In this document: piece after piece, positions 4,233-21,730 of the stretch
Layout: the number at the start of each line of letters is the position of its first letter
How positions within the stretch are numbered: the stretch's first letter is position 1
IMG/VR virus record: IMGVR_UViG_3300032116_001482
Span: 1 to 21,730 of that record
DNA: 21,730 bases
Direction: 5' to 3' (one strand)
Source of the DNA: a virus
Translations under genes and position numbers: made by a program
The notes under the pieces: model-generated
Database searches by the model: none
What the model was told of the DNA's origin: nothing
Seen by the model: the letters and a program-made list of their open reading frames with translations, nothing else

Positions 4233-4688
4233 ATGCCATTCCAACTTTCTCAGCGCAGTCTCGATAAACTAGTGGGCGTTCGCCCGGAACTGGTCGAGGT
4301 GGTTAAACGCGCTATTGAGATCACCACTGTTGACTTCGGTGTCACCGAGGGACTGCGTACCAAGGAGCGTCAGATCGAACTCTTTGAGAAAGGAGCATCC
4401 CAGATCAAAGACGGCGGCACTCACGTCGATGGCAGAGCGGTGGACCTGATGGCCTACATCGGAGATCGTGGCAGTTGGGAACTCAACCTGTACGACAACA
4501 TTGCTGATGCGGTGAAACAAGCCGCAATCGAGAAGAACGTAGCGATCCGTTGGGGTGCTGCGTGGAACGTGCCCGACATTCGCCTCTGGCGCGGCACGAT
4601 GGAGGAGGCCATGAACTTCTACATCGACGAGCGTCGTAAGCAAAACAAGCGTCCGTTCATTGACGGACCCCACTTCGAGATGGTCTAA
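4233..4688 (+). CDS. Endolysin, M15-family L-Ala-D-Glu / D-Ala-D-Ala-type peptidase
   Basis: A 151-residue single-domain peptidase without signal peptide, so it depends on the holin. The M15 zinc site is complete: H64 and D71 in GGTHVDGRAVDL and H147 in the C-terminal GPHFEM, with E149 in the usual HxE arrangement. The N-terminal half has the family features VTEGLRTKERQIELFEKGAS. Related phage endolysins, such as that of T5, cut the peptide stem of Gram-negative peptidoglycan. The start has GAGGAG upstream. The exact bond cleaved cannot be told from sequence. Confidence 0.87.
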   Translation: MPFQLSQRSLDKLVGVRPELVEVVKRAIEITTVDFGVTEGLRTKERQIELFEKGASQIKDGGTHVDGRAVDLMAYIGDRGSWELNLYDNIADAVKQAAIEKNVAIRWGAAWNVPDIRLWRGTMEEAMNFYIDERRKQNKRPFIDGPHFEMV

Positions 4689-7965: not shown

Positions 7966-9750
7966 CAATATCCCACAATTGCCCAACCACAATTCGCATT
8001 CGCCCCCACTTTTGCTGGAGGCGGGCTGGCTAACGCCGCGCAGGCAGTTCAGTCTCGGGGTCGCGGCAACGACACCATGCTGGTTCACATGACCCCCGGC
8101 GAGGTAAAGGGGTTGCAGGCACTGGCGTTGGCGCATGGCGGTTCCCTAACAATCAACCCTGCTACGGGTTTACCCGAAGCCGGATTCCTCGACGCTATCC
8201 TGCCTATCGTGGCGGGTTTTGCACTTGGCCCTGCTGGTTTTGCTCTGATGTCTGCCCCGATGGCGGCGCTGACTGTGGGTGGCGTAACGGCTTTGAGCAC
8301 GGGCGACCTCGGCAAAGGCCTGATGGCGGGTCTGGGCGCATTCGGCGGTGCTAACCTTGGTGCCGCTCTGTCGTCTACGGGTACTGAAGCAGCCAAAACA
8401 GCAATGTTGCCTAGTGGCGGTATGTCTGTCGCAGAAAGCATCCCCGCCAGTATGGGCGGTACGGGTGCTACGACAGGTTCTACGCTTGCGGACATCACTG
8501 GAAAAGCGGCTTCTGCGTCTGGTCCGATGTCGATGGCTCCGTGGGCACAACCCAGCGTAGCCTCTCAACTGGGCGTTTCTTCCGCTCCGGTGGCAATGAC
8601 GCCGTCTCAAGTGGCGGCTTTGCAATCGACGGCTCCGACTGGGTTCAGTAGTGTTGGCTCAGGCATTGCTGACTTGGCTTCCCCCGGTGGTTTTTCCCGT
8701 TTTGGTAACGCATTCATGAATGCTTCCGGCGGCGGTATGGGTACGGCTATGGGTGCGTACGGTATGGCGGCTCCTGTTTTGGACGCAGTTCAGCCTTCCT
8801 ACGAGTTTCCTAACGTTGCCGAAGCCACCAGTTCTAACTATGCAGGGCCATACGTACCGACCCCCCGTGAGGTACGGTTCAAGCCTGAAGATGACACCAG
8901 CACTTCGGAGTTCACCTACTTCACCCCGTCTAACCCTGTTCCGGGGTATCAGCCAATGAATGCTGCGGCTGGTGGTTACATGCAACGCTACCAAGAAGGT
9001 GGTGAGGTCATGCCGCGAGTGAGCGACATGGTGCGTCCTGCTCCTGAAGTCATTCAGACGCTGCCCGCTGTACCTGAGTCAGCCAATCAGGGGATGACTG
9101 CCTCGTTGTTCAATAAAAACTTTCTTGGTGCCGAGCCTGCCAATTTGACCGAGCATAGTGGTATGGAGAGCATGGTGCGCTACCAAGAGGGTGGCAACGT
9201 TGAAGATCGCGCCCTGCGTATGCCTGCTGACCTCAGCCGTGTCGGGACTGCACCTGAGTTCAATCACAATTTCCGCCCCATCGAGGTGATGGCTCCTGCC
9301 CAAAGTGCTGCCCCTGAACCTGCTGGTTTCGGTGGCCTCATCTCGCGTGCGATGCGAGACATCTTTGACCGTGAGGGGAAGTCCAATTACACCGACTTGT
9401 CCAAGTTCAAGTACGACCCCAACACCCAACGCATGGTGCCGATGGCACAAGGTGGACTGGCTGCGCTCAATGCCTACAACAAAGGCGGCACCCCTGTGGG
9501 TGGTCGTTTCCTGCAAGGAGCAGGCGACGGCACTAGCGACTCTATCCCCGCCACGATAGGCGGAAGTCAACCAGCACGTCTGGCTGATGGCGAGTTTGTG
9601 GTGGATGCTCGCACTGTGTCCGAGATTGGTAACGGCTCTTCTAAGGCTGGTGCCAAGAAGTTGTACGCCATGATGGAGCGTGTGCACAGCGCACGCAAGA
9701 AAGCCAAGCGTGGTCAGGACACTAAAGCAGACAGGTACTTGCCAGCATGA
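7963..9750 (+). CDS. Podoviral internal virion / structural protein, Gly-Ala-rich
   Basis: A 595-residue protein. The N-terminal ~70 residues hold the conserved motif MTPGEVKGLQALALAHGGSL with NPATGLPEAGF, known from virion proteins of many environmental podoviruses. Residues ~75-137 are strongly hydrophobic and Gly/Ala-rich (AILPIVAGFALGPAGFALMS), suitable for membrane insertion during DNA ejection. The centre is low complexity, with two copies of RYQEGG (nt ~8987 and ~9179). The C-terminal module (~519-583) has DGTSDSIPATIGGSQPARLA, DGEFVVDARTVSEIGNGSS and GAKKLYAMMERV, also widely conserved at the end of such proteins. Its place just before the gp13-gp16-like block supports an ejection or tail-core role. 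Exact function is unknown. Confidence 0.65.
   Translation: MQYPTIAQPQFAFAPTFAGGGLANAAQAVQSRGRGNDTMLVHMTPGEVKGLQALALAHGGSLTINPATGLPEAGFLDAILPIVAGFALGPAGFALMSAPMAALTVGGVTALSTGDLGKGLMAGLGAFGGANLGAALSSTGTEAAKTAMLPSGGMSVAESIPASMGGTGATTGSTLADITGKAASASGPMSMAPWAQPSVASQLGVSSAPVAMTPSQVAALQSTAPTGFSSVGSGIADLASPGGFSRFGNAFMNASGGGMGTAMGAYGMAAPVLDAVQPSYEFPNVAEATSSNYAGPYVPTPREVRFKPEDDTSTSEFTYFTPSNPVPGYQPMNAAAGGYMQRYQEGGEVMPRVSDMVRPAPEVIQTLPAVPESANQGMTASLFNKNFLGAEPANLTEHSGMESMVRYQEGGNVEDRALRMPADLSRVGTAPEFNHNFRPIEVMAPAQSAAPEPAGFGGLISRAMRDIFDREGKSNYTDLSKFKYDPNTQRMVPMAQGGLAALNAYNKGGTPVGGRFLQGAGDGTSDSIPATIGGSQPARLADGEFVVDARTVSEIGNGSSKAGAKKLYAMMERVHSARKKAKRGQDTKADRYLPA
8986..9202 (+). repeat. Two copies of a RYQEGG segment in the structural protein
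   Basis: The encoded segments YMQRYQEGGEVMPRVSDM and SMVRYQEGGNVEDRALRM lie ~190 bases apart within one gene. Similar double-glycine hinges (QGGLAALNAYNKGG; DGGLMSLP; NSGGIVAFAAG) recur later in this protein and in the 706-residue protein downstream. Confidence 0.5.
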
Positions 9751-10652
9751 TGGAACTACAGATAAGCACTCTATGGATTGAGCGGCTTTTGAAGAAGCCC
9801 TTCCATAAGCATTGTCTGTTGGGGGACAAGAAGTTCTTCGATCCCTATTCCTTCCCGGTAGCAAAAGAGTTGGAAGACAATTTTCCAGCCATTCAAGCCG
9901 AACTTAAAGACATCCTTAAGCGTTACGACGACTTCGCTCCGTTTCAAAGCATCTCGCCTGACCAGACTTACATCTCCAACGACGACAAGTGGCGAATGTT
10001 TTTCTTTAAGGCGGCTGGGGTGAACTTCGGACGCAACCAACAATTTGCACCAAAGACCTTCGAGATTCTGAACAAACACAAGTATGTAATTTCAGCCTAC
10101 ATATCTGTGCTTGGTCCCCATAAAATGCTCATGCCGCATGAAGGTCCGTGGTCTGGCATTCTGCGTATGCACTTGGGGGTGGTTATCCCCGGCAACAAAG
10201 AGTGCACGTTGGTCAACGGTGGCGAGAAGTACCACTGGGAGGAAGGCAAGGTAGTCCTGTTTGACGATACGTACGAGCACATTGCTGTGAACGAAACCGA
10301 TCAGATTCGGGCTATCCTATTCTTGGATGTGATGCGTCCCTTGCCGCAACCGTGGAAGTTCATCAACTGGGCGATCCTGCGCCTGTCGGTTCTGTTTCCG
10401 TATATTTGGATTCCGTACTTCCGGCACAAGCGATGGGAGAAGCGGTTCTACGGAGAAAAAGAATGCAATGCACAATGGTCCCTAGCGAGCACGTTAAAGA
10501 AATTTGGAGCCAAGTTGAAGGCTACCTCGAAGGGGCTGCTGAGTACACTCATGGTCGGTATGACGTGGATGACATCTACGACTCGATCATGGGCTACGAC
10601 CATACGCTCTGGATTGCTTTCACGGACGAAGGCATCAAAGGGGCAGTCGTGA
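9747..10652 (+). CDS. Aspartyl/asparaginyl beta-hydroxylase-like 2-oxoglutarate oxygenase
   Basis: A 301-residue protein whose start overlaps the previous stop (ATGA). Residues ~115-195 are a recognisable Asp/Arg hydroxylase (AspH-type) domain: H131 in MPHEGP, R140 and H142 in ILRMHLGVVIP, W-EG, FDDTYEH with H178, and R188 in DQIRAILFLDV. The spacing of these residues follows human AspH (H679, R688, H690, H725, R735), and the first His is followed by x-Gly rather than x-Asp, as in AspH, so iron would be held by two histidines. A hydrophobic stretch (~residues 203-225, FINWAILRLSVLFPYIWIPY) follows. The last ~62 residues overlap the next gene by 190 bases and look like out-of-frame sequence; a protein of ~239 residues may be the ancestral form. 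The substrate is unknown; its virion-gene neighbours suggest a phage or host protein. Confidence 0.8.
   Translation: MMELQISTLWIERLLKKPFHKHCLLGDKKFFDPYSFPVAKELEDNFPAIQAELKDILKRYDDFAPFQSISPDQTYISNDDKWRMFFFKAAGVNFGRNQQFAPKTFEILNKHKYVISAYISVLGPHKMLMPHEGPWSGILRMHLGVVIPGNKECTLVNGGEKYHWEEGKVVLFDDTYEHIAVNETDQIRAILFLDVMRPLPQPWKFINWAILRLSVLFPYIWIPYFRHKRWEKRFYGEKECNAQWSLASTLKKFGAKLKATSKGLLSTLMVGMTWMTSTTRSWATTIRSGLLSRTKASKGQS
10452..10465 (+). promoter_or_regulatory. Ribosome binding site fixing the start of the GNAT-like gene
   Basis: GGAG at 10452-10455 lies seven bases before the ATG at 10463. This supports translation starting well inside the oxygenase frame and excludes the longer 183-residue reading from 10352. 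Confidence 0.6.
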
Positions 10653-10903
10653 CAAATTTCATGTTTTACCCACGTAAGAAGTATCTTGTGATGACCTTCT
10701 GCGGCGGGGTGGAACTGGAAACATGGAAAGACCCCATGCTGAAGTTGTTGCAGCACTTTGCGTTCGATACCCACTGTGATGGAATTGAGGCAACTGCAAG
10801 ACCGGGCTGGGCCAAGATGTTTAAGAACGACGGGCATCAACCGTTGTGGCAAACCTTTCAACTTCCTGCGGCTGATGCGGGGTTAGGAGCACAAAATGGG
10901 TAA
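10463..10903 (+). CDS. GNAT-like phage protein in the position of T7 internal virion protein gp13
   Basis: A 146-residue protein. The order of elements is that of a compact GNAT fold: an N-terminal helical part (HVKEIWSQVEGYLEGAAEYT), strands HTLWIAFTDEGIKGAVVTNF and KYLVMTFCGG, a helix (WKDPMLKLLQHFAF), strand GIEATARPGWAKMFKNDG, and a final strand WQTFQLP. Phage proteins like this are often labelled internal virion protein A; T7 gp13 has a similar layout. No clear acetyl-CoA pyrophosphate loop (Q/RxxGxG/A) is visible, so it may be a structural derivative and not an active enzyme. Its stop overlaps the next start by eight bases. The first 190 bases overlap the 3' end of the oxygenase gene. 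Confidence 0.6.
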   Translation: MQCTMVPSEHVKEIWSQVEGYLEGAAEYTHGRYDVDDIYDSIMGYDHTLWIAFTDEGIKGAVVTNFMFYPRKKYLVMTFCGGVELETWKDPMLKLLQHFAFDTHCDGIEATARPGWAKMFKNDGHQPLWQTFQLPAADAGLGAQNG

Positions 10904-11807
10904 AGGCGGCGGCGGAGGCGGGGCACCTCAACCCTCATCTCAAACAGTAACGCAGACTAATCTGCCGGAGTACGCAAAGCCGTACTTTGAGAACATCATG
11001 AGCCGGGCGCAGGCTGAGTCCTATCGTCCGTACACTGCGTATCAAGGTGAACGCATCGCTGGGTTTACCCCCGGGCAGACGGCTGCACAAACTGAAACTC
11101 TTGGGATGAGAACCCCCGGGCAGTTTGGCACGGCTACGGGTGGTACGACGGCTGGCGCGGCTATGGGCTTGGGTGCTGGTGCACAGGGTCTGGGTGCGGC
11201 TTTCACCGATCCTACGCAGATGATGTCGCCTTACTACCAAGGCGTAGTAGATGTTCAAAAGCGCGAAGCCATCCGTGATGCGGAGAAGACTCAACTGGGT
11301 GCCAACCTTGCGGCGGCTCGGCAGGGTACCTATGGTGGTGCTCGCCAACTCTTGGCTCAGACCGAACGTGAGCGTGCTCTTGGTCAGCAGGTTGGTGACA
11401 TCCAAGCCCGTGGTCTGCAAGCCGCCTACGAGGCAGCGGCGCAGCGCGGTCAGATGTTGGGCCAACTGGGCATGCAGGGTCTGGGTATGGGGCTGCAAGG
11501 CGCTCAACAACTTGGACAACTCGGTGCGCAACAACAGCAAACCGATCTTGCTCGTATCCAAGCGCAGGCAGCCGCTGGTGCAGAACAGCGTCAACTCCAA
11601 CAGCAACGTCTTGATACGGCGTACGCCGACTTCTTGCGTCAGCGTGACTATCCGATGGAGCAATTGGGCTACTACAGCAATCTGCTACGCGGCGTGCCTG
11701 TTCAGTTGGGTTCGACCTCGACTACATACGCGCAACCCCCGTCTCTCGCTTCCCAAGTCAGTGGTCTCGGTTTGGCAGGGCTGGGCTTGTATAACCTAGC
11801 AAAATAA
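10896..11807 (+). CDS. Internal virion protein in the gp14 position (ejection protein)
   Basis: A 303-residue protein with AGGAG at 10885-10889. It opens with a poly-Gly tract (MGKGGGGGGAPQP), then LPEYAKPYFENIMSRAQAES and TPGQ motifs, followed by MMSPYYQGVVDVQKREAIRD, long Ala/Gln-rich helices (residues ~125-240, e.g. LQGAQQLGQLGAQQQQTDLA), and the C-terminal DFLRQRDYPMEQLGYYSNLL with a short hydrophobic end (SGLGLAGLGLYNLAK). This architecture is conserved in podoviral virion proteins located between gp13-like and gp15/16-like genes. The amphipathic Gln-rich helices suit the membrane-spanning part of an ejection conduit. The homology to T7 gp14 is positional and not shown by sequence here. 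Confidence 0.65.
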   Translation: MGKGGGGGGAPQPSSQTVTQTNLPEYAKPYFENIMSRAQAESYRPYTAYQGERIAGFTPGQTAAQTETLGMRTPGQFGTATGGTTAGAAMGLGAGAQGLGAAFTDPTQMMSPYYQGVVDVQKREAIRDAEKTQLGANLAAARQGTYGGARQLLAQTERERALGQQVGDIQARGLQAAYEAAAQRGQMLGQLGMQGLGMGLQGAQQLGQLGAQQQQTDLARIQAQAAAGAEQRQLQQQRLDTAYADFLRQRDYPMEQLGYYSNLLRGVPVQLGSTSTTYAQPPSLASQVSGLGLAGLGLYNLAK

Positions 11808-11816
11808 GAGGCAGAC

Positions 11817-13937
11817 ATGGAAACTAAACCTTACGCAATCCAGTCGCCCGAAGACATCGCAAAAGAGTACGGCGGCAACAAACAGAAAATTGCACAGGCT
11901 GCGCAGATCGGCCTGCTTGACCCTACCGCTGCGGTGCTGGCAGGTATGTTTATTGACCGCATGCGCGGTGCCCAATCGCAAGAGCAAGCACCCCAACGCA
12001 CTGTCGCTCAACAAGTACTGGCCCCGCAACCTGCTGCACCTACGGGTGCTGGGCTAGGTGCAACCCCTGAAGCCGCTCAATTGGCAGCGGCCTACCCTGC
12101 TGAAGGTGCACCACCTCCGATTCCCGGTCCTTCCATGCCGCAAGAGCCTGTCATGGCTGCGGACGGTGGACTGATGTCGCTCCCTGTCGATGACTCCATG
12201 TTTGAGCCGTCCTACAACTCGGGCGGCATTGTTGCTTTTGCGGCTGGCTCTGAAGGCATGCCTGTTCAGGGCGAAGGTGTCATTGCAGAGCGTGAACGCG
12301 AGCGTCTGCGTCAAGCCATCCAAGCCCGGGCTGCTGCTATTTCCGATCCTACCGCTCGGGCGCAGTTCCTCAACCAAGTTACCAAGTTGTCTCCTGATGA
12401 GCAGCGCGTAGCACTCGGTGAGATTACGCTGGCTCCTGTCCCCTCGATGAGTAACGTTGAGGGTGCGCCGCTAACGGGTGAGTCGCCCGGAGTTATCCGT
12501 GGTGAAGGTCTGACGGTCACTGAAAGCCCACGTGCTGCTCGTTCAAGTGCTCCTGACCCAGTGGAAGAAATTCGCCGGGAATACGGCGATGCCGCTGCTA
12601 AGTTCTACAAAGAAAAAGGTTATTTTGCCCCGGGTGCATGGCAACGACTTTCTGACGGCGAATATCCGATGATTGCCGGAAAACCTGCCGTGTCGGACGT
12701 TTACCCTGACGAGACCCTTCGCGGTTCTCGTGCGTCAATGGTTGCTCCTCCTGCGGATGCGGCTGCTCCTCCTGTGTCCGATGTCTATCCTGACGAGACT
12801 GTTCGTGGTTCACGTCAAGGGCTAGTTGCAGCCGCTGCTGTGGATGCTGATCCTGCCGCTGCAAAGGCTGCTGTTGACCAAGGTGGCGCTGCGGGTCTGC
12901 GAGCCTATGTTCAGCAATACAAAGACTTGATGAGTGGTATCCCTGAGGGCGAAGGTCTCAAGGAGTACAAGGAGTATCTGAAGAATCTGCCCGGTGAACT
13001 CGACAAGCGCAAGAAGGAAGACCTGTGGGGCGCATTGACTCAGTTTGGTCTCAACCTCGCTGGCTCTCAGTCGCCGTACTTCCTGCAAGCCGCTGGTCAA
13101 GCAGGCGCTCAGACGATGCCTGCCATCACTGGTGCTATTAAAGAACGTCGTAGTGCTGAGGCTGAGGCCCGTAAGTCTCGTGCTGAACTGGACAAGATGA
13201 CTCGTGCCGAGGAAATCAAAGCCCTTGAGGGTGGCGTCAAGTTGTACGGCGACGAACAAGGTCGTCTCACCCAAGCAGAGATTGCCCGCCTTAATCGGGA
13301 GTCTCAGGAACGACAGGCGCGTATTGCGGCTGACAAACCGACTGACATGCGTAGTTACGTTGCTGACGCTGTGGCTGCGGCACGGGCTGGAGGCGACAAA
13401 GAGACTCCCGATGCAGTTCTCCGCCAACGCGCCGTCGAGACTTACTTGAACCTGTATGGTGCTGCGGGGGCAAGAGCAAGTGCTGCCCAAACGCAAGCAA
13501 GTACAGCGGCAGACGCAGCATCCGCCAGAATCCAAGACAGTGCACGCGACAACGTCGATAAAGCACTTGCAGGTAACTGGAACAGCCCCGAAAACAAACG
13601 CATTCGCGATCTACAAAAAGCAGACAGGGAAGCGAATAAAAAATCTGGGGCTAAACCGGGAGATGCAAACTATCAAGACAGCGTCACCCCGTATAGAGAT
13701 AGTCTGTATTCCGCCGAAGAGGCACGCCTCCGGAGAGGAAGTGCTGCGTCGGCTCCTGCGCCCGCTCCGGCTCCTGCCGCTTCTGCTCGACCCCCGGCTG
13801 CTGCGCCTGCTGCTTCTGCTCGACCCCCGGCTGCTGCACCGCAAAGTCAGTTTACGGTTACGGCACCGAACGGCAGGGTGTACTATTTCCCGACTAAGGA
13901 AGCGGCAGACGCATTCGCAAAATCGTTCGCTAAGTAG
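11817..13937 (+). CDS. Internal virion protein in the gp15 position
   Basis: A 706-residue protein preceded by AAGAGGCAGAC. The N-terminus IQSPEDIAKEYGGNKQKIAQ followed by LLDPTAAVLAGMFIDRMR is a conserved opening in environmental podovirus virion proteins. The middle contains the Gly hinge region (DGGLMSLPVDDSMFEPSYNS), a 28-residue repeat around SDVYPDET(L/V)RGSR, and a long charged helical region (residues ~365-560) with many Arg/Glu/Ala. The C-terminal part is a Pro/Ala linker with two 11-residue repeats (ASARPPAAAP) before a short folded tail (FTVTAPNGRVYYFPTKEAAD). It is probably ejected or part of the tail core with its neighbours. No enzymatic motif is found. Confidence 0.6.
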   Translation: METKPYAIQSPEDIAKEYGGNKQKIAQAAQIGLLDPTAAVLAGMFIDRMRGAQSQEQAPQRTVAQQVLAPQPAAPTGAGLGATPEAAQLAAAYPAEGAPPPIPGPSMPQEPVMAADGGLMSLPVDDSMFEPSYNSGGIVAFAAGSEGMPVQGEGVIAERERERLRQAIQARAAAISDPTARAQFLNQVTKLSPDEQRVALGEITLAPVPSMSNVEGAPLTGESPGVIRGEGLTVTESPRAARSSAPDPVEEIRREYGDAAAKFYKEKGYFAPGAWQRLSDGEYPMIAGKPAVSDVYPDETLRGSRASMVAPPADAAAPPVSDVYPDETVRGSRQGLVAAAAVDADPAAAKAAVDQGGAAGLRAYVQQYKDLMSGIPEGEGLKEYKEYLKNLPGELDKRKKEDLWGALTQFGLNLAGSQSPYFLQAAGQAGAQTMPAITGAIKERRSAEAEARKSRAELDKMTRAEEIKALEGGVKLYGDEQGRLTQAEIARLNRESQERQARIAADKPTDMRSYVADAVAAARAGGDKETPDAVLRQRAVETYLNLYGAAGARASAAQTQASTAADAASARIQDSARDNVDKALAGNWNSPENKRIRDLQKADREANKKSGAKPGDANYQDSVTPYRDSLYSAEEARLRRGSAASAPAPAPAPAASARPPAAAPAASARPPAAAPQSQFTVTAPNGRVYYFPTKEAADAFAKSFAK
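12690..12818 (+). repeat. Two-copy 84-base tandem repeat in the gp15-position gene
   Basis: The segment encoding VSDVYPDETLRGSR starts at 12690 and VSDVYPDETVRGSR at 12774, a period of 84 bases (28 codons). Several third positions differ, so the duplication is not recent and the peptide is under selection. Confidence 0.7.
13779..13840 (+). repeat. 33-base direct repeat encoding ASARPPAAAP
   Basis: TTCTGCTCGACCCCCGGCTG occurs at 13781 and again at 13814 with no difference over more than 20 bases, a period of 33 bases. It codes for a Pro/Ala linker and, being nearly identical, looks recent or slippage-prone. Confidence 0.75.
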
Positions 13938-13945
13938 GAGTTGGA

Positions 13946-16900
13946 ATGGACTACGACAAACTTGCCAGACAGTTCGGTGGAACTGCGGCTCCTGTAAGTC
14001 CTCCAGCGCAACCGGATTTTGATGCGCTTGCCAAACAGTTTGGTGGTGCTGCCGCGCCTGTAGCAGCCAAGGGGCAAGACCTTGATGCGCTTGCCCAGCA
14101 GTTTGGTGCAACAGGCTACTCTGTTCCTGCGCCTGCTCCGGCTGCTGCGGCTCCGGCTGCTGCGGCTCCTGCCCCTGCAAAACAGGAAGAAAGTTCTTTC
14201 TGGGGCGAGGTCAAAAAAGGCTTCGGTACTGCGTGGGAAGGACTTAAGAATCTTCCTGAAACGCTCAGTTTGCAGCGTTCGTCGCTCAACGTAGACCGCA
14301 ACATGCAGGTCTTGAACTACCTTGATCGCATCGACAAGGGTGAAAAATTTGGGTTGGGTGTCGGTATGGGCGAGTTGCCCGTAAACATGACCACGACTAT
14401 CGACTTGTACCAGCGTGCGAAGCCCGAGAAACGCGCAGAGTTGCGTGCTCAGGTTGAGGCTGAGATGAGAACTCAGCAAGACAAAATTATGCAGGCTTTG
14501 CCTGCGTATGCGGAGTATCAGAAGAAACTGGAACCCTATCGTGGTCGGGTGCCTGACGCTACCGACATTGGTTCGCTTAAAGACTTCCGCGACTGGCTGG
14601 GCTTTAATGTATCTGCGGGTACGGTGCAACTGCTACCCATCATGGCTTCTGCCTATGTCACTCGGGGTCAAGCACGAGTTGCTGCCCCTGCGGGTATCGG
14701 TACGACGATGGCTCTGGGAGAGACAGTTCAGAACCGCCTTGAGTACATCCTCGACAAGGTAAAGAGTCTCCCTCCTGAACAGCAGGCGCAGGCAGTACAA
14801 GAATACATCACTGCGACTAATGACACCAACATGGCAGTTGCCCTCGCGTCTGGGGCACTCGATCTTGCTGGCCCTGTTGGTACCATTATCCGTCGGCAGT
14901 TGGCAAAAGAAGGCGGCAGAGAGTTCGTCAAATTTGCTACTAAACGCGAAGCAGCCAAGGCTGCGGTTACGCAAGCACCCCGTGAAATCGGGGAAGAGTT
15001 TCTTACGGGTGGTGCGCAGGAGATTGCGCAGATTGCTGGTGCCCGAAATGTGGGTGAGCAGACGGGAGACATATTCTCCAAAGAAAATATCAAGCGTGTG
15101 TTCAACGCTGCTGCCGCAGAAGCCGCTGGTAGTCTGGGTGGTAGTGGTATCAATGTAGCCACAAACGTTGGGCAGCAGATGTTGGCTGAACGCACTGAGC
15201 GTTTGGCAAGAGAAGAGTTGGAAAATCAAGTCCGCGATATGGAGCGGCGCACTCGTCAGTCCGAGGTATCGGCAGCGGCTGACACGATTGGACCCACTTT
15301 TGATGCGCTGGTGGCGAGATACAGAGCCGAAGGCATGTCTGAAATGGATGCGTTCAAAGCGGCAGGGGCCGATATAGCGCAAGGGAGGGTCGATCTTGGA
15401 GACATTACAACTGACACCGGAAGAGGTGAGCCTAGCGTTTCTGTGCCTAGTGGGGGAACAGAAACAGTCCAACCTACCGCCGAGTCTACAGAATCTGGAA
15501 CTGCACCAGTGGCAGTATCTGGCGCACCTGTTGGCGATGCTGGAACAAGAGCGCGATCTGTCGCAACTCCACTGACTGAGCGTGTTGAACCTACCGTAGA
15601 TGTAGACCAACTGGCGGCGCAAGAATCCCGGCAGCGGGGACGTGCGGAGCCTAGTGCCACCGTGGTGGAACCGGGTTCTCTTGAGGAAAAAGTTCGTCTG
15701 GCCTATCCGCCAGAAGTTGCAGAGCAGATCATTGCTCGTGCAAGTGTGCTCACGCAAGAAGCCGCAGATATGGGGGCGTCGATTAACCCCGGCCTGATTC
15801 TGCGTGCTGCTGAAGCGCAGGTTCTCGAAACTCTACCGGAAGAGACGGCTGCTGCACCACAAGGTACAGAGGTCATCGACGAGAGTGCGTTCTTGGAGTC
15901 TGTTGCACCACAGGACGCAACAGCCATTGACGAAAGCGCGTTCCTAGAGTCTGCTGCGCCGCAAGATGTAACAGCCATCGACGAAAGTGCATTCTTGGGT
16001 GCGCCTGCCGAGACCGTATCTTTAGACGCGGTTACCGAGACCACTCCTGCTTCTGCGCTACCTGTAAACCCTGAGACGGGCCTGAAGCCAAAGGGCAAAC
16101 GTGGTCGCAAGCCTGTCGAGCGCACGCCCGAAGAGCAAGCCGCTGCCGATGCCCAGCGCAAAGAACGTCAGAAAGTCGGGCGCGATTCCATTCGCACTGC
16201 TGAGAAATCTCGTGCCGTTGTTGAAAAGCCGTTCAGCGTGGACGACTACGACAACATGGATGCTGCCAAAGCGGCGGCTATGGAACTTCAGCAGGAACGG
16301 GACAACGCCCTAGTTGAGGCTTACCGCATCCTGAATGACCGCAACATTGGCCCGACTTCCAAGGCCAAGCAGATTGCCAAGACCGTCATTGACCACCCGA
16401 GTGTTGACCTGCAAGAGAAACAGCGGGCACAAAGTCGTGCCAAGCAGACGGATACTGCTCGTGCAGACATCCTTGGAGACTCCACCAACGCCCAGCCTGA
16501 CTCGTTCTACGAGACGGCTACCGATGCAACCAAGGCGATTGACCACGTCATTAAGACTGGCAACCCGTTTGAAAAACTGCTCGCCCAACGCATCAAGCCT
16601 TTTTTGAAGGGTGTGAAGATTGTTGTCGTCAGCAATCCTGAGACTGACATCCCTGACCCTCGTACCCGCCGCAACTTCCGTGGCGCGATGGGCCTGTACG
16701 TCGAGAAGGGCAAGCAGCGCACGATTTACCTGAGCAACATGCCCGGGTTGCGTGGCATCAACAACATGACGTTCCTGCACGAAGCACTTCACGGTGCGAC
16801 GATGGCGCAGATCAACGCATGGACTAAAGACCCCAACTCGGTCAGCCCCCAAGCCCGTGCGGCAATTGCTGACATGCAAAAGGTGATGTTGCAGGCGTAC

Positions 16901-19900
16901 AAGTATTACGCTGTGATGAACGTCACTGGCAGAACCGATCCGCTGGAAGACGCGCTCTACAACCTCGGTGCCTTCACCGACCTCAAGGAGTTCGTGGCTT
17001 ACGGCATGACCCAGCCCGAGATGCAAGACTTCTTGATGAAGGTGCCCGGGCAGTACAAGTTCGATGGGGACACGCTCAACCGTGGCCTGCTGACTAAGTT
17101 CGTGCAGTCCATCCGCAAGATGTTCAACATGGGGCCGCAGTATGACTCTGCGTTCCAAGACCTTGTGGTGGTTACGGATCGTCTGCTACGCGCAGCACCC
17201 GCCCCTTCTTCTCAGAGCACTATCATGGCTTTGGCGCGGAGGGTCACCGCCAAACAAAACAAGACGCTTGGAAAGATTGCAAGGTCTCAGAGTGCAACGG
17301 ACTTGAACGCCAGCATCGGTGAATTGATGATGGAGACCCGGAATGCCAAGGATGCAATCCGTCTGCTGAAGTCCGTCTATGGCGCTTTGTCTGTGGGTAC
17401 GCTGCGGAAAATTTTGCCGACCCAAACCACGATGGACATTACTCGTTGGATTGGAGACCGCATCAACAACATCCGTGTCGTCAATGATGCCGTGCAGGAC
17501 ATGGCTGGCATGCGTGCCAAGATGATTCGGGAACTGGCGCAGAAAGTCCCCGAGTGGGTGGCATTTGGTCAGAAATACGAAGATGGTGCTCGGGCGCTGG
17601 GCGATGTGATGCACGCCTCTACGCTGCTAGGTGTTGATCCTACTTTGTACCCGGACCTCTTTGACGCATTGCAGAACGACACTCAGTTGCAGAAACTGAA
17701 GGCTGACTATCAGGCCGCGCTCAACGACCCCAACAAGTCGCCCAAGCAACGGGCTACCGCCAAGGGCAACATCACCAAACGTGAGAATGAACTGCGGGTG
17801 GTGTATGAAGGCGGTCTAGTGGTTAACCCGCACACTGGTGAGCGATACAACATCAGCGGATGGGACAACCTTGCCGCACCTACTTTTGGCAACGGAGAGG
17901 GTCAGCGCATCTACGTCATGGCACGCGATGCCTATCGGGATACGTTCAACCTGCACCAGAAGTTGTTGATCGACAAGATCACCAAAGCCAACATTCCGGG
18001 TAGTGCCAGCAAGCCCAACACCCCGAAGGGCAAACTGATTGCCCAGATCACGCAGACTTTCCAAGAAGCCCAGCAGTTGGGGGTCTACTTCCCCCTCATG
18101 CGTTACGGCAACCACTGGCTGCGTATTGGTTCTGGTAAGTCCGGCGAGTTCTACATGTTTGAGTCCGCTGCGGCTCGAAACAACTACGCCCGTAAGCGTG
18201 CGGAAGAATCTGGCAAGACGCTGGAGGAGATGATTGAGTCGGAAGACTTTGATGTGGGTGATGACCTGCGCGAGATGCGCAACGACATCGTCGAGTCCAG
18301 CCAGATGCTCAAGGACATCTTCAAGGCACTGGAGGACAGCGCCAACGTGGACCCGGTCACTGGTAAGGCTGCGATTACGGACGTAGACGCAATCAAAGAT
18401 CAGGTCTATCAGATGTACCTGATGACGTTGCCTGACCGAGACATCCGTCGCAAGTTCACTCATCGCCAAGGCAAGACGGGTTTCAGTGCCGATGTGCTTC
18501 GCAATTTCATCGTGTCTCAGCACACTGCGGCTAACCAATTGGCGCGTCTGGCCTATGCTGACCAGATTCGGTTGGGTATTGGCTCTGCTTACGCTGAACT
18601 TGCAGGCAACCCTGACAAGTTGAAACTGTCGGCCTTCGTGGATGAGATTGCCATGCGTGCCAGCGCGGAGATGACTCCGCAAGTCCCGGGTGAATTTAAC
18701 TGGGATCAGATGGCGAGCATCGGTAACCAAGTGGTCTTCTACTACATGCTGACCTCGCCTAAGTCGGCTCTGGTGCAGATGACCCAGTTGCCGATTGTTG
18801 GTTTGCCTGCACTGACCGCTAAGTATGGTGCTGCCGATACGGCGAAAGTCACGGCGCGTTACTCCTTCTTGTTCAACAAACTTGGCACTACGAAGATAGA
18901 CCAGCGCGGGAATGTAGTGACCAACTGGGGCGAGCCGTCCATCAACGACTCCTCCTACGTCAATAAGCACCCTGATCTTGATTACCGCAAGGCGCTCAAG
19001 ACCGCATGGCAAGCAGCCCAAGACCGAGACATCTTCATGTCTACCTATGCGGCGGACATGACCAGCCGTGCCTCTGTGCCTACGGGCAAGTACGAAGGCT
19101 GGATGAAGAAGGGCACTCGGGCTACGTTGAACTTGATGGGCGGTGCCTTCCACCACTTGGAGCGCATCACCCGTGAGACCATGTACATGTCCACGTTTGA
19201 GTTGGAGTTTGCTCGTGCTAAGAAAGAAGGGCTAAACAACGCAGACGCAACGGACCGTGGTATCAAGGCTGCAACGGACATGGTCTACGAGACCCTGTTC
19301 AACTACTCGCAGTACAACAAGCCGCGCATCATGAAGGCGGGTGCCATTCCCCGTTTGGCTACTCAGTTCATGAGTTTCCCGCTTCAGATGACTTCTTATC
19401 TGGTGCGCAACTTCTACGGCATGCTGCCTTTCCTGAACAAGGAAGAAAAACGTGACGCTGCCATCAAGTTCTTTGGCACGCTAGGCATGACGGGTATGTT
19501 TGCTGGTGTGGTTGGCCTGCCCGGATACAGCATGATTATGGGTATCGCTGAGGGCATCCGCGAGTTGCTGCGTCCTGACATGGAAGATGATGAGGCAGAC
19601 GAGGAATACGATGTTGACGATGACGGCAACCCGCTTGGCAAGCGTAATCTTGATCTGTGGTTCCGTGAATGGTTCATTCCGAACTATTTCGGCCCGGGTA
19701 GCGACCTCGCTAAGGCACTTGGTCTTACCGACGAACAGGCACTTGCCCTACAACGTGGTGTCAAGATGGGGCCAATCTCGGCACTGACTGACCTGAACAT
19801 CGGCGCGTCGGTATCACTGGATGGTCTGTGGTTCCGTGACGATGCACCTGCGGAAGACTCCAAGGCTGCATTCACGCAGTTCATCTTTAACTTTGTAACT

Positions 19901-20473
19901 GGCCCGTTTGGTAGCATGGGGCAGCAGGTTGCTTCTGCCTTCGATGATTTCAACAACGGGCAGTTCAATCGTGGGGTGGAGAAACTGCTTCCTGCATTCT
20001 TCCGTGGTGGTGCCAAAGCCATACGACAAGCAACCGAGGGAGAGCAGACTCGTCAAGGTGCTGAGATTCGCAACGCCGAGTGGTACACCACGGGCAAGTT
20101 GCTTGGCACATCGCTTGGGTTCCAAAGCACTGAAGTGGCGGAAATCCAGAAGAAGAACTTCATGGCTAAACGCATGGTGATGGAGATTCAGAAGGATCGC
20201 CAGAAAGTGCTTGCTGATCTCGACCTAGCAGTGCAGCGGTATGAGAATGACCCATCAGACAGCAATGAAACTCGTCTTGAGGATGCTTTGATAGCCATTG
20301 ACAAGTACAACTACAAGAACGGCATGCTTGCCATCAGCGGTGAGACCGTGTCGAAGTCGTTGTCTGGTCGGGCGCAGCGTCGTGCTGAGGCAGTTGAAGG
20401 GCTTATGGTTTCTCCGAAAGAAGCCCCGTACGTCTACCCACTGCTCGAACGCTCCCAAGTGCCGCAGGAATAA
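13946..20473 (+). CDS. Giant polyvalent ejection protein (gp16-like) with HExxH metallopeptidase domain
   Basis: A 2175-residue protein preceded by TAGGAG. Regions in order: three N-terminal D(Y/F/L)DxLAxQFG repeats (residues 2-12, 24-34, 45-55); a Pro/Ala linker; a helical region to ~450 with amphipathic and hydrophobic stretches; a disordered acidic section with three IDESAFLES repeats (~644-685); an AT-hook-like KGKRGRKP (716-723); a zinc metallopeptidase domain (~870-1060) with H945-E-A-L-H949 and E1015 (DLKEFVAYG) as likely third ligand; a long helical region; a hydrophobic segment (~1840-1872), an acidic run, and a C-terminal region like PLxRFG-type phage polyvalent proteins. I see no lytic transglycosylase motif, unlike T7 gp16. 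It is probably carried in the virion and expelled with the DNA to build the conduit and process envelope or host proteins. Substrate and ligand assignments are inferred. Confidence 0.72.
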   Translation: MDYDKLARQFGGTAAPVSPPAQPDFDALAKQFGGAAAPVAAKGQDLDALAQQFGATGYSVPAPAPAAAAPAAAAPAPAKQEESSFWGEVKKGFGTAWEGLKNLPETLSLQRSSLNVDRNMQVLNYLDRIDKGEKFGLGVGMGELPVNMTTTIDLYQRAKPEKRAELRAQVEAEMRTQQDKIMQALPAYAEYQKKLEPYRGRVPDATDIGSLKDFRDWLGFNVSAGTVQLLPIMASAYVTRGQARVAAPAGIGTTMALGETVQNRLEYILDKVKSLPPEQQAQAVQEYITATNDTNMAVALASGALDLAGPVGTIIRRQLAKEGGREFVKFATKREAAKAAVTQAPREIGEEFLTGGAQEIAQIAGARNVGEQTGDIFSKENIKRVFNAAAAEAAGSLGGSGINVATNVGQQMLAERTERLAREELENQVRDMERRTRQSEVSAAADTIGPTFDALVARYRAEGMSEMDAFKAAGADIAQGRVDLGDITTDTGRGEPSVSVPSGGTETVQPTAESTESGTAPVAVSGAPVGDAGTRARSVATPLTERVEPTVDVDQLAAQESRQRGRAEPSATVVEPGSLEEKVRLAYPPEVAEQIIARASVLTQEAADMGASINPGLILRAAEAQVLETLPEETAAAPQGTEVIDESAFLESVAPQDATAIDESAFLESAAPQDVTAIDESAFLGAPAETVSLDAVTETTPASALPVNPETGLKPKGKRGRKPVERTPEEQAAADAQRKERQKVGRDSIRTAEKSRAVVEKPFSVDDYDNMDAAKAAAMELQQERDNALVEAYRILNDRNIGPTSKAKQIAKTVIDHPSVDLQEKQRAQSRAKQTDTARADILGDSTNAQPDSFYETATDATKAIDHVIKTGNPFEKLLAQRIKPFLKGVKIVVVSNPETDIPDPRTRRNFRGAMGLYVEKGKQRTIYLSNMPGLRGINNMTFLHEALHGATMAQINAWTKDPNSVSPQARAAIADMQKVMLQAYKYYAVMNVTGRTDPLEDALYNLGAFTDLKEFVAYGMTQPEMQDFLMKVPGQYKFDGDTLNRGLLTKFVQSIRKMFNMGPQYDSAFQDLVVVTDRLLRAAPAPSSQSTIMALARRVTAKQNKTLGKIARSQSATDLNASIGELMMETRNAKDAIRLLKSVYGALSVGTLRKILPTQTTMDITRWIGDRINNIRVVNDAVQDMAGMRAKMIRELAQKVPEWVAFGQKYEDGARALGDVMHASTLLGVDPTLYPDLFDALQNDTQLQKLKADYQAALNDPNKSPKQRATAKGNITKRENELRVVYEGGLVVNPHTGERYNISGWDNLAAPTFGNGEGQRIYVMARDAYRDTFNLHQKLLIDKITKANIPGSASKPNTPKGKLIAQITQTFQEAQQLGVYFPLMRYGNHWLRIGSGKSGEFYMFESAAARNNYARKRAEESGKTLEEMIESEDFDVGDDLREMRNDIVESSQMLKDIFKALEDSANVDPVTGKAAITDVDAIKDQVYQMYLMTLPDRDIRRKFTHRQGKTGFSADVLRNFIVSQHTAANQLARLAYADQIRLGIGSAYAELAGNPDKLKLSAFVDEIAMRASAEMTPQVPGEFNWDQMASIGNQVVFYYMLTSPKSALVQMTQLPIVGLPALTAKYGAADTAKVTARYSFLFNKLGTTKIDQRGNVVTNWGEPSINDSSYVNKHPDLDYRKALKTAWQAAQDRDIFMSTYAADMTSRASVPTGKYEGWMKKGTRATLNLMGGAFHHLERITRETMYMSTFELEFARAKKEGLNNADATDRGIKAATDMVYETLFNYSQYNKPRIMKAGAIPRLATQFMSFPLQMTSYLVRNFYGMLPFLNKEEKRDAAIKFFGTLGMTGMFAGVVGLPGYSMIMGIAEGIRELLRPDMEDDEADEEYDVDDDGNPLGKRNLDLWFREWFIPNYFGPGSDLAKALGLTDEQALALQRGVKMGPISALTDLNIGASVSLDGLWFRDDAPAEDSKAAFTQFIFNFVTGPFGSMGQQVASAFDDFNNGQFNRGVEKLLPAFFRGGAKAIRQATEGEQTRQGAEIRNAEWYTTGKLLGTSLGFQSTEVAEIQKKNFMAKRMVMEIQKDRQKVLADLDLAVQRYENDPSDSNETRLEDALIAIDKYNYKNGMLAISGETVSKSLSGRAQRRAEAVEGLMVSPKEAPYVYPLLERSQVPQE
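13949..14110 (+). repeat. Three N-terminal QFGG repeats of the giant protein
   Basis: The units start at residues 2, 24 and 45 (DYDKLARQFGG, DFDALAKQFGG, DLDALAQQFGA). The second and third are close at base level (GATGCGCTTGCC then CAGTTTGGTG), pointing to recent duplication. The unit is likely a docking or packaging element at the protein's N-terminus (inference). Confidence 0.7.
15875..15997 (+). repeat. Three-copy 51-base tandem repeat in the giant gene
   Basis: ATHGA(C/T)GA-type units begin at 15875, 15926 and 15977 and code for IDESAFLES(V/A)APQD(A/V)TA, the third truncated after IDESAFLG. The exact 51-base period and scattered third-position changes show tandem duplication kept in frame. 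Confidence 0.8.
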
Positions 20474-20556: not shown

Positions 20557-20751
20557 TCAAAGACGCCATATCCGTAAACCCTTGATGCCGTCTTCGATCA
20601 CAACTTTGGTCAATATGTTGTATCGGAGCCTCTGTGTGGTACGACGAACCTCTTTCTCAGCGGCAGGCGGGTTCAAGCAAGGGATGAAGAACGAGCACCC
20701 CTTCTTAAACTTTTTCCAGTTCACCCGATAACTAACCTTCTCCACCAGCAT
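20557..20751 (-). CDS. Small basic phage protein downstream of the DUF927-type gene
   Basis: A 64-residue protein from the ATG at 20751 (MLVEKVSYRVNWKKFKKGCS), overlapping the end of the upstream gene by 20 bases in another frame. An alternative in-frame ATG at 20778 would add nine residues. The pattern WKKFKKGCSFFIPCLNP, then a charged helix (AAEKEVRRTTQRLRY), then TKVVIEDGIKGLRIWRL looks like a compact alpha/beta fold and resembles small proteins I recall from phage replication regions. No function is known to me. Being basic, it might bind nucleic acid. It is the last gene of the leftward operon before two terminators. Confidence 0.6.
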   Translation of the reverse strand: MLVEKVSYRVNWKKFKKGCSFFIPCLNPPAAEKEVRRTTQRLRYNILTKVVIEDGIKGLRIWRL

Positions 20752-21730
20752 CGTTGGCACCCGGGGTTGCGAACTCATCCATGCTGATGAACTCCGTGTT
20801 GGAACAGTCGAAGATCAGTGAATGCACCCCGGGCGATACGACCTTCATGCCTTTGGACAGCCGTTTGTTCATGGTGCCCAGAAAGATGCCTTTCTTCTCT
20901 AACTGCGCCAGCGTGTCTTTGTAGTTCACTTGGAACTTGACGCAATCGTTCTTGAACGGCTTGGCGGCTACGAACATCTTCTTAGTATCTGGCTCGTAGC
21001 GTATGAGCAACTCGCCACGAGGCTCCAGTGTGGGCAGCATTGCCATGTTGGTGCGACGATCTACTTCCTCGTTTACAACCAAGATGTTCTGCATGTGACG
21101 GTTGATGTAGTCACCGACCACTGCCATCACGTCGCTGGCTGGCGGCTTCACTTCTACTCGTAGGCCCAAGATCATCTGGGTAGCCCACTTGTAGATGGCT
21201 TTCATGTCCCAGTCGATGAGGCCAATGTTCTTGGCAATCAGACCGCCAGTGATGTTGGCAGCAACCACCGCAGACCAGAAGCGTTCACGTTGAGTCAGGC
21301 GCAGTTCCTTGTCGATCTTGGCTTGGATGCCAAGGACCGTGTTCTTCGCTTCTTCCAGATTCTCTACTAGCCACTTGGCATACAGGTCGCCTGCGTGTCC
21401 GAAGTTCTGCTTCAGTTGATGATCGAACATGTGCTTGGCTTCTGCCACGTCAATCACTGGGCTGTAGTCGATCTTGTATTCGATCAGGCGCATCATCTCG
21501 CCGTCAGGGCTGCTTTTGAGTGATGCCATCTTTTCGTAGAACGAAGCGTTCGATGAGCACAGGGAGATTGACTGCCACGAAGTGAGGTTCAGGCGCAGTT
21601 CGTTGGAACTGGCTTTCACCCGATCACGCCCCCGCCCCTGCGACATGCTGTACGCCAAGGTAGAGAAGTCTGCCGGAGTGGTGTTGGTCATCTCGTCCAT
21701 GGTAAACGGCAGGTTGTTCATCAAGCCCCG
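20732..21730 (-). CDS. DUF927-type phage ATPase/helicase-like protein, C-terminal part, cut by right edge
   Basis: The frame is open to the window edge; the TTG at 21724 that could serve as a start lies in mid-domain, so the gene begins beyond the window. The visible part starts at a Walker B-like LPFTMDEMTN, then has LAYSMSQGRGRDRVKASSNE, a polar sensor-like strand SISLCSSNASFYEKM, and PDGEMMRLIEYKI. This order is characteristic of DUF927 proteins, helicase-like P-loop ATPases found in phages and mobile elements; the Walker A motif must lie further right. The C-terminal ~200 residues (ERFWSAVVAANITGGLIAKN; later RRTNMAMLPTLEPRGELLIR) form a further domain of unknown role. A replication or early function is likely from family and from the opposite strand to the late genes. 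Confidence 0.65.
   Translation of the reverse strand, partial: RGLMNNLPFTMDEMTNTTPADFSTLAYSMSQGRGRDRVKASSNELRLNLTSWQSISLCSSNASFYEKMASLKSSPDGEMMRLIEYKIDYSPVIDVAEAKHMFDHQLKQNFGHAGDLYAKWLVENLEEAKNTVLGIQAKIDKELRLTQRERFWSAVVAANITGGLIAKNIGLIDWDMKAIYKWATQMILGLRVEVKPPASDVMAVVGDYINRHMQNILVVNEEVDRRTNMAMLPTLEPRGELLIRYEPDTKKMFVAAKPFKNDCVKFQVNYKDTLAQLEKKGIFLGTMNKRLSKGMKVVSPGVHSLIFDCSNTEFISMDEFATPGANDAGGEG

Follow-up and report, generated by a model that had tools for sequence, protein, structure and literature searches.

The giant gene of a virus known here from its contig alone (IMG/VR virus record IMGVR_UViG_3300032116_001482, 21,730 bases taken as a fragment and called the window below) encodes a zincin-like metallopeptidase domain belonging to the family that includes the C1 domain of the virion RNA polymerase (vRNAP) of phage N4. 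The gene lies at 13946–20473 on the plus strand, directly 3′ of a putative ribosome-binding site (GGAG), and specifies a protein of 2175 amino acids (aa), in which the domain, delimited by a block of conservation, occupies aa 855–1085 (16508–17200, plus strand). A sequence-only reading had put it at 16550–17200, close to these limits. The domain very probably adopts a zincin fold with an intact site, and it is predicted, with good confidence, to be catalytic. Taking the whole chain of inference, which is computational, we give a probability of about 0.55 to the reading that it is a DNA-associated protease acting after ejection on host proteins or on its own chain.

The predicted zinc site is formed by HEALH at aa 945–949 (16778–16792, plus strand), comprising H945, the predicted general base E946, and H949, together with E1015 in DLKEFVAYG (16988–16990, plus strand), the predicted third zinc ligand. 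HExxH occurs only once in the giant protein, where 13 histidines give a chance expectation of 0.005, and H945, E946, H949, and E1015 were already kept in an early alignment of five relatives. A first scan of viral contigs, with HExxH itself as part of the search pattern, found 196 relatives and returned the best 80. In an alignment of 61 sequences, with the relatives thinned at 90% identity, the only invariant columns are G937, L944, H945, E946, H949, and E1015. The sequence-only reading had proposed this HExxH with this downstream glutamate as the zinc site, and the invariance of the tetrad in 61 of 61 sequences bears it out; E1015 is the right glutamate to pick because it is invariant in these aligned relatives. 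A profile scan of genome contigs with the same alignment yielded 101 pattern stretches and no relatives among them.

Since the first sets were drawn partly by the HExxH pattern, our claim of conservation rests on a second set, recruited by the C-terminal core alone with a 20-sequence alignment (289 relatives, best 80 returned). Ten of these 80 proteins are cut before the domain and two (L115 and L131) inside it; with these 12 dropped, 68 were evaluable. The domain is present in 55 of the 68, all with HExxH, and the tetrad is invariant across these 55 rows (46/46 distinct rows); it is missing from the other 13. The domain therefore appears to be lost whole, with no broken-site copy seen among the 68 evaluable proteins. 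Of seven zincin-less relatives scanned among the 13, two have a weak ART-PolyVal match and one combines a HATPase with a WLM-like match. In the zincin-less relative L168 (1707–10328), HATPase is accompanied by a WLM-like match with HEASH, a metallopeptidase of another type in the same slot. Extra HExxH motifs outside the domain studied here occur at aa 2557 of L101 (Parlo gp81) and aa 3871 of L100 (Pavtok gp27).

The AlphaFold2 model of the domain, built on the 61-sequence alignment, has a mean predicted local distance difference test score (pLDDT) of 87.3, with 94–98 in the core. Its elements follow the order helix, strand, helix, two strands, HExxH helix, long helix, short helix, and a separate helix bearing E1015. 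In model numbering, an N-terminal helix (57–69) precedes a three-stranded sheet (73–78, 99–104, and 107–115), HExxH (128–132) lies on helix 123–144, and E198, corresponding to E1015, lies on helix 196–205. When the model was compared with VIA-align, the top rows were catalytic domains of lethal factor (top Z 5.8, 156 aligned, root-mean-square deviation 6.3), followed lower down by the zincins SprT (Z 4.3) and PPEP (Z 4.1); other parts of toxin chains are also on the list. Lethal factor (M34 type) and SprT, among the best non-phage rows, may have the zincin fold in common with the window domain, although neither gave a sequence match to it in the profile search of the PDB. In SprT and Spartan proteases the third zinc ligand is a histidine, whereas the third conserved position of the window domain is a glutamate, E1015. 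Among predicted viral structures, the window model had 21 matches at E ≤ 1e-3, the first being an internal core protein of phiKMV type (E 2.6e-11), with N4-like vRNAPs and proteins bearing large polyvalent protein associated domains (LPDs) or ART-PolyVal following later.

On its own, the domain returned nothing over the cut-off in Pfam or NCBIfam. All 61 members of the alignment match phrog_2206 (virion RNA polymerase), the window protein at positions 1997–2251 of that family with E 2.3e-21. Iyer et al. 2017 place a zincin-like metallopeptidase (MPTase) at aa 2130–2448 of N4 vRNAP and describe MPTases as the commonest domain of polyvalent proteins; the fold that they give for these, a three-stranded sheet with an N-terminal helix, an HEXXH helix, and a Glu helix (PMC5512222), is the fold seen in the window model. 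The corresponding C1 domain of N4 vRNAP (gp50), residues 2124–2375, has been described as a zincin-type HExxH domain (preprint PMC12633501; PDB 9pnt, 9pnr). It is of the same family by profile and by the fold of a relative, carries HExxH, and is part of an ejected virion protein (PMC12633501). It differs from the window domain in being attached to an RNA polymerase, and the AT-hook-like motif described below is missing from A38, the sole N4-like vRNAP checked. The window domain is also fused in one chain to polyvalent-type domains, namely LPD39 (large polyvalent protein associated domain 39; aa 1164–1257, 17435–17716, plus strand; Pfam PF18858, E 6.4e-8) and the PLxRFG/tail-700 core (aa 1379–1878, 18080–19579, plus strand; NCBIfam NF032893, E 1.2e-90). 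Such joining of a zincin MPTase with LPD domains in one large protein of a mobile element is what Iyer et al. describe. Similarity to DarB-like antirestriction proteins extends over aa 1365–2158 (PHROGs, phrog_10089, E 4.8e-56). LPD39, the core, and the vRNAP-family match substantiate the link to polyvalent phage proteins that the sequence-only reading had drawn, and the window domain is a member of the polyvalent zincin-like MPTases including N4 vRNAP C1, a family that is itself already known.

The domain profile also matched solved ejection proteins, i.e. 9sfn_G (1337 aa, E 4.9e-45) and 8vb2_A (PhiM1 gp48, E 6.4e-4), with a weaker match to 23sg_S (gp10; E 0.025). By the alignment, HExxH of 8vb2 begins at about residue 385 and its glutamate lies near 449. 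In a 19-sequence alignment including PhiM1-like, KpV74-like, and phiKMV proteins, whose rows are only 12–19% identical to the first row except for two near-identical ones, the invariant positions are the tetrad and one leucine, and HEHE is read in 10 of the 10 representatives of a further alignment. VIA-align of a PhiM1-like model placed 8vb2 residues 268–517 at Z 16.0 and N4 vRNAP residues 2124–2364 at Z 8.5, the next row being at 5.2. The N4 and PhiM1 chains are listed for this model only and are not among the 50 rows listed for the window model. With Foldseek, the sole match of the PhiM1-like model below 1e-3 was 8vb2, with poor overall superposition. PhiM1 residues 268–528 were assigned as endolysin/exotransglycosidase-like via BLASTP and DALI (PMC11440229); our reading is that this region is the N4 C1/polyvalent zincin domain. 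We found no paper in the open-licence literature searched that names the phiKMV/PhiM1 domain a metallopeptidase, though the authors of 9sfn may already say so. Together, the conserved site, the predicted fold, and the kinship with a solved domain uphold the earlier proposal of a metallopeptidase-type domain in a giant protein of the ejection cluster.

Of the 751 phage records that match phiKMV gp37, 12 chosen for spread from 60 listed rows were examined: 10 tetrameric ejection proteins (TEPs), one N4-like vRNAP, and one Limnohabitans protein. The HExxH zincin motif is present in five of the 10 TEPs, in the vRNAP, and in the Limnohabitans protein, and is not in the other five TEPs; KpV74, not matched by the domain profile, was counted via its HExxH and alignment. 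phiKMV gp37 and its kin (PDB 9sfn_G; PhiM1 gp48, PDB 8vb2) have the same domain with the tetrad as the window protein, and the gp37 gene, like the giant gene, is placed after two smaller internal virion genes. In contrast, gp37 is of about 1300 aa, has no recognised LPD39 or PLxRFG core and no AT-hook-like motif, and has its domain annotated as endolysin. When the C-terminal core of the window protein, as a possible TEP hub, was compared with phiKMV-type TEPs, hhalign aligned no more than 33 columns (probability 17, E 0.0014). We also considered cleavage of the RNA polymerase alpha subunit in phiKMV, attributed to Rac, as the job of the gp37 zincin, and dropped it as Rac needs no other phage factor (PMC7552054). 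According to the same paper, none of the Phikmvvirus products has a predicted proteolytic domain.

Many relatives have, about 230 residues upstream of HExxH, a motif of the type GKPRGRPK; its counterpart in the window reads KGKRGRKP (aa 716–723, 16091–16114, plus strand). An AT-hook has a GRP-type core between basic residues, and it is on account of this core that we take the motif to be AT-hook-like; by its letters, with the GRP form in many relatives, it is a candidate AT-hook. Among 71 zincin proteins, a mix of the HExxH-recruited and core-recruited sets, the strict form was found in 44 (4.875 per 1000 aa in the region compared with 0.036 elsewhere), and the relaxed core GR[PK] upstream of the zincin in 55 (6.28 compared with 0.29 per 1000 aa). 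The strict form is present in three of the 13 zincin-less core relatives, in other surroundings (Fisher p 0.014 against 44/71, uncorrected for kinship). In PhiM1, loops of the homologous domain carry positive charge and are situated close to the coiled DNA (PMC11440229). No report of an AT-hook-like motif in such proteins was found in the open-licence literature searched, and the main text of Iyer et al. 2017 (PMC5512222) does not mention AT-hook, KMV, ejection, or internal virion. The linked motif and the re-reading of the phiKMV/PhiM1 endolysin may therefore be new.

The gene context points to ejection. Upstream of the giant gene are a 303-aa gene of a DNA ejection protein family (10896–11807, plus strand; phrog_4287, E 5.2e-20) and a 706-aa gene with no recognised domain (11817–13937, plus strand). 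Among 59 loci that have over 2.6 kb of upstream sequence, 58 have a counterpart of the 303-aa gene ahead of the giant gene on the same strand, and 21 have a counterpart of the 706-aa gene. Adjacency to ejection protein genes is one of the marks of a TEP, and this context supports, without proving, the view that the giant protein belongs to the virion and is ejected from it; this bacterial virus probably injects it along with its DNA.

From the computed tetrad, fold class, family, gene context, and linked motif, we propose a scheme in which zinc binding, catalysis, ejection, DNA binding, timing, and substrate are all conditional. The giant protein would be packed with the genome and stay beside the DNA, as the AT-hook-like motif and the position of the homologous PhiM1 domain along the DNA path suggest. 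It would exit the capsid with the DNA and then refold, after which the zinc site could cleave one or a few targets, whether host proteins or its own chain, at the place of entry or on the DNA as it comes in. Of the three roles offered by the sequence-only reading, opening a path in the envelope, processing sibling ejection proteins, and cutting host targets after entry, this scheme retains the last and adds the chain itself. Action after ejection is favoured because the proteins of relatives seem whole in virions: in particles the PhiM1 TEP could be modelled before, across, and beyond the domain (PMC11440229; 8vb2), a phiKMV-type protein of 1337 aa and 144 kDa was assigned to the top virion band (PMC5638911), and N4 vRNAP is reported to enter the particle without processing (PMC5512222). 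A more specific form, in which the AT-hook-like segment holds the zincin on the entering genome and the protease clips host restriction, degradation, or nucleoid proteins there, with the phiKMV/PhiM1 "endolysin" a protease too rather than a cell-wall enzyme, is speculative and on balance unlikely.

Several observations weigh against a DNA-associated protease acting after ejection. The zincin is not essential to the core, because 13 of the 68 core relatives lack it, and the N4 authors point out that HExxH is shared by some non-proteolytic enzymes (PMC12633501). The intactness in virions comes from relatives and would apply to this phage by analogy. As for the DNA link, 16 of the 71 zincin proteins have no motif even in the relaxed form, and it is not in phiKMV-type proteins, the A38 vRNAP, Parlo, or Pavtok. 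For the PhiM1-like domain, AlphaFold2 gave a weak model, with a mean pLDDT of 59.7. Finally, Foldseek with the window model gave no match in the PDB at E ≤ 1e-3, with most template modelling (TM) scores near 0.2, and the VIA-align Z scores to non-phage zincins are below 6, a middling range for this tool.

The domain could instead open peptidoglycan, taking over the task of the T7 gp16 transglycosylase. As the sequence-only reading had noted, such a transglycosylase is missing: Pfam at E ≤ 1 reports neither an SLT nor a lysozyme domain anywhere in the 2175-aa protein, while it does detect SLT in Ptah, Cd1, Parlo, and Pavtok. The zincin motif is present in five of 10 TEPs, and the two of seven scanned TEPs with SLT (Ptah and Cd1) are both without zincin, a pattern that would suit replacement, as would the endolysin/exotransglycosidase-like label of the PhiM1 region (PMC11440229). 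However, Parlo gp81 carries SLT and zincin together, so that the zincin is not simply a substitute for SLT; the octameric protein of PhiM1 has a separate lysozyme-like domain (PMC11440229); and neither domain scans nor fold comparison revealed kinship to a known peptidoglycan peptidase. We consider a cell-wall role improbable. Elsewhere in the window there is an endolysin gene (4233–4688; phrog_465, E 1.7e-49, with a weak Peptidase_M15_4 match), and a wall-degrading enzyme of the phage therefore lies outside the giant protein.

Cleavage might also take place earlier, with the domain acting on the chain that carries it or on sibling ejection proteins while the particle is assembled or within the head, as proposed for P1 DdrB. 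Self-processing has been proposed for polyvalent MPTases generally (PMC5512222), and a long, weakly conserved linker (about aa 430–700) precedes the window domain. The linker, poorly conserved as it is, has no obvious shared cleavage site, although no search aimed at such sites was made, and the apparent intactness of the PhiM1 TEP, the 144-kDa phiKMV-type protein, and N4 vRNAP in particles argues against processing there; we regard it as rather unlikely. Lastly, the fold may have been retained for a structural purpose or for chemistry other than proteolysis, such as that of a hydroxylase of the HExxH-oxygenase type. A low row of the fold comparison is indeed an alpha-ketoglutarate dependent HExxH oxygenase domain (Z 3.3), and enzymes of this kind are cited by the N4 authors (PMC12633501). 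The zincin rows stand above the oxygenase row in VIA-align and the distal glutamate is invariant, and a purely structural role leaves the fixed tetrad unexplained, which makes this the least probable of the alternatives.

The remainder of the giant protein has features of its own. Short motifs occur two to three times within about the first 55 residues of the giant proteins, alike within a protein and different between relatives. In the window there are three copies, YDKLARQFGG, FDALAKQFGG, and LDALAQQFG (13952–14107, plus strand); examples from relatives include FVPFTGKLD, WTPPSDAV, FDPSTA, and LAKQFGG (L003, L004, L025, L028, L034, L070, L080, L099, and others). Of 55 N-termini, 27 have repeat scores above the 99th percentile of the control windows and 28 do not; Pro/Ala-rich runs account for some of the high scores. 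Each of the 22 repeat patterns tested was found only in the giant protein of its own locus. These repeats could be a packaging or docking tag. Within the linker, IDESAFL occurs three times at a spacing of 17 residues (aa 644–684, 15875–15997). Other genes of the window include an aspartyl/asparaginyl beta-hydroxylase gene among the virion genes (9747–10652; PF05118, E 9.7e-41), a NUMOD3/GIY-YIG-like homing endonuclease gene near the tail fibre genes (1638–2246), and a DNA primase/helicase-like gene on the minus strand (20732–21730; phrog_8841, phrog_25314), which is cut by the window end.

In summary, one domain joins three phage groups, namely N4-type vRNAPs, phiKMV-type ejection proteins, and giant PLxRFG proteins. 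This suggests that the "endolysin/exotransglycosidase-like" domain of the PhiM1 ejectosome, so named in many annotations of phiKMV-type phages, is a metallopeptidase, and N4 on E. coli K-12 offers a system for testing what an injected phage protease cuts. A concrete idea of a DNA tether comes from the linked AT-hook-like motif, and a DNA-tethered protease, if true, would be the protein-cutting counterpart of the DNA-modifying domains in related DarB-like proteins.

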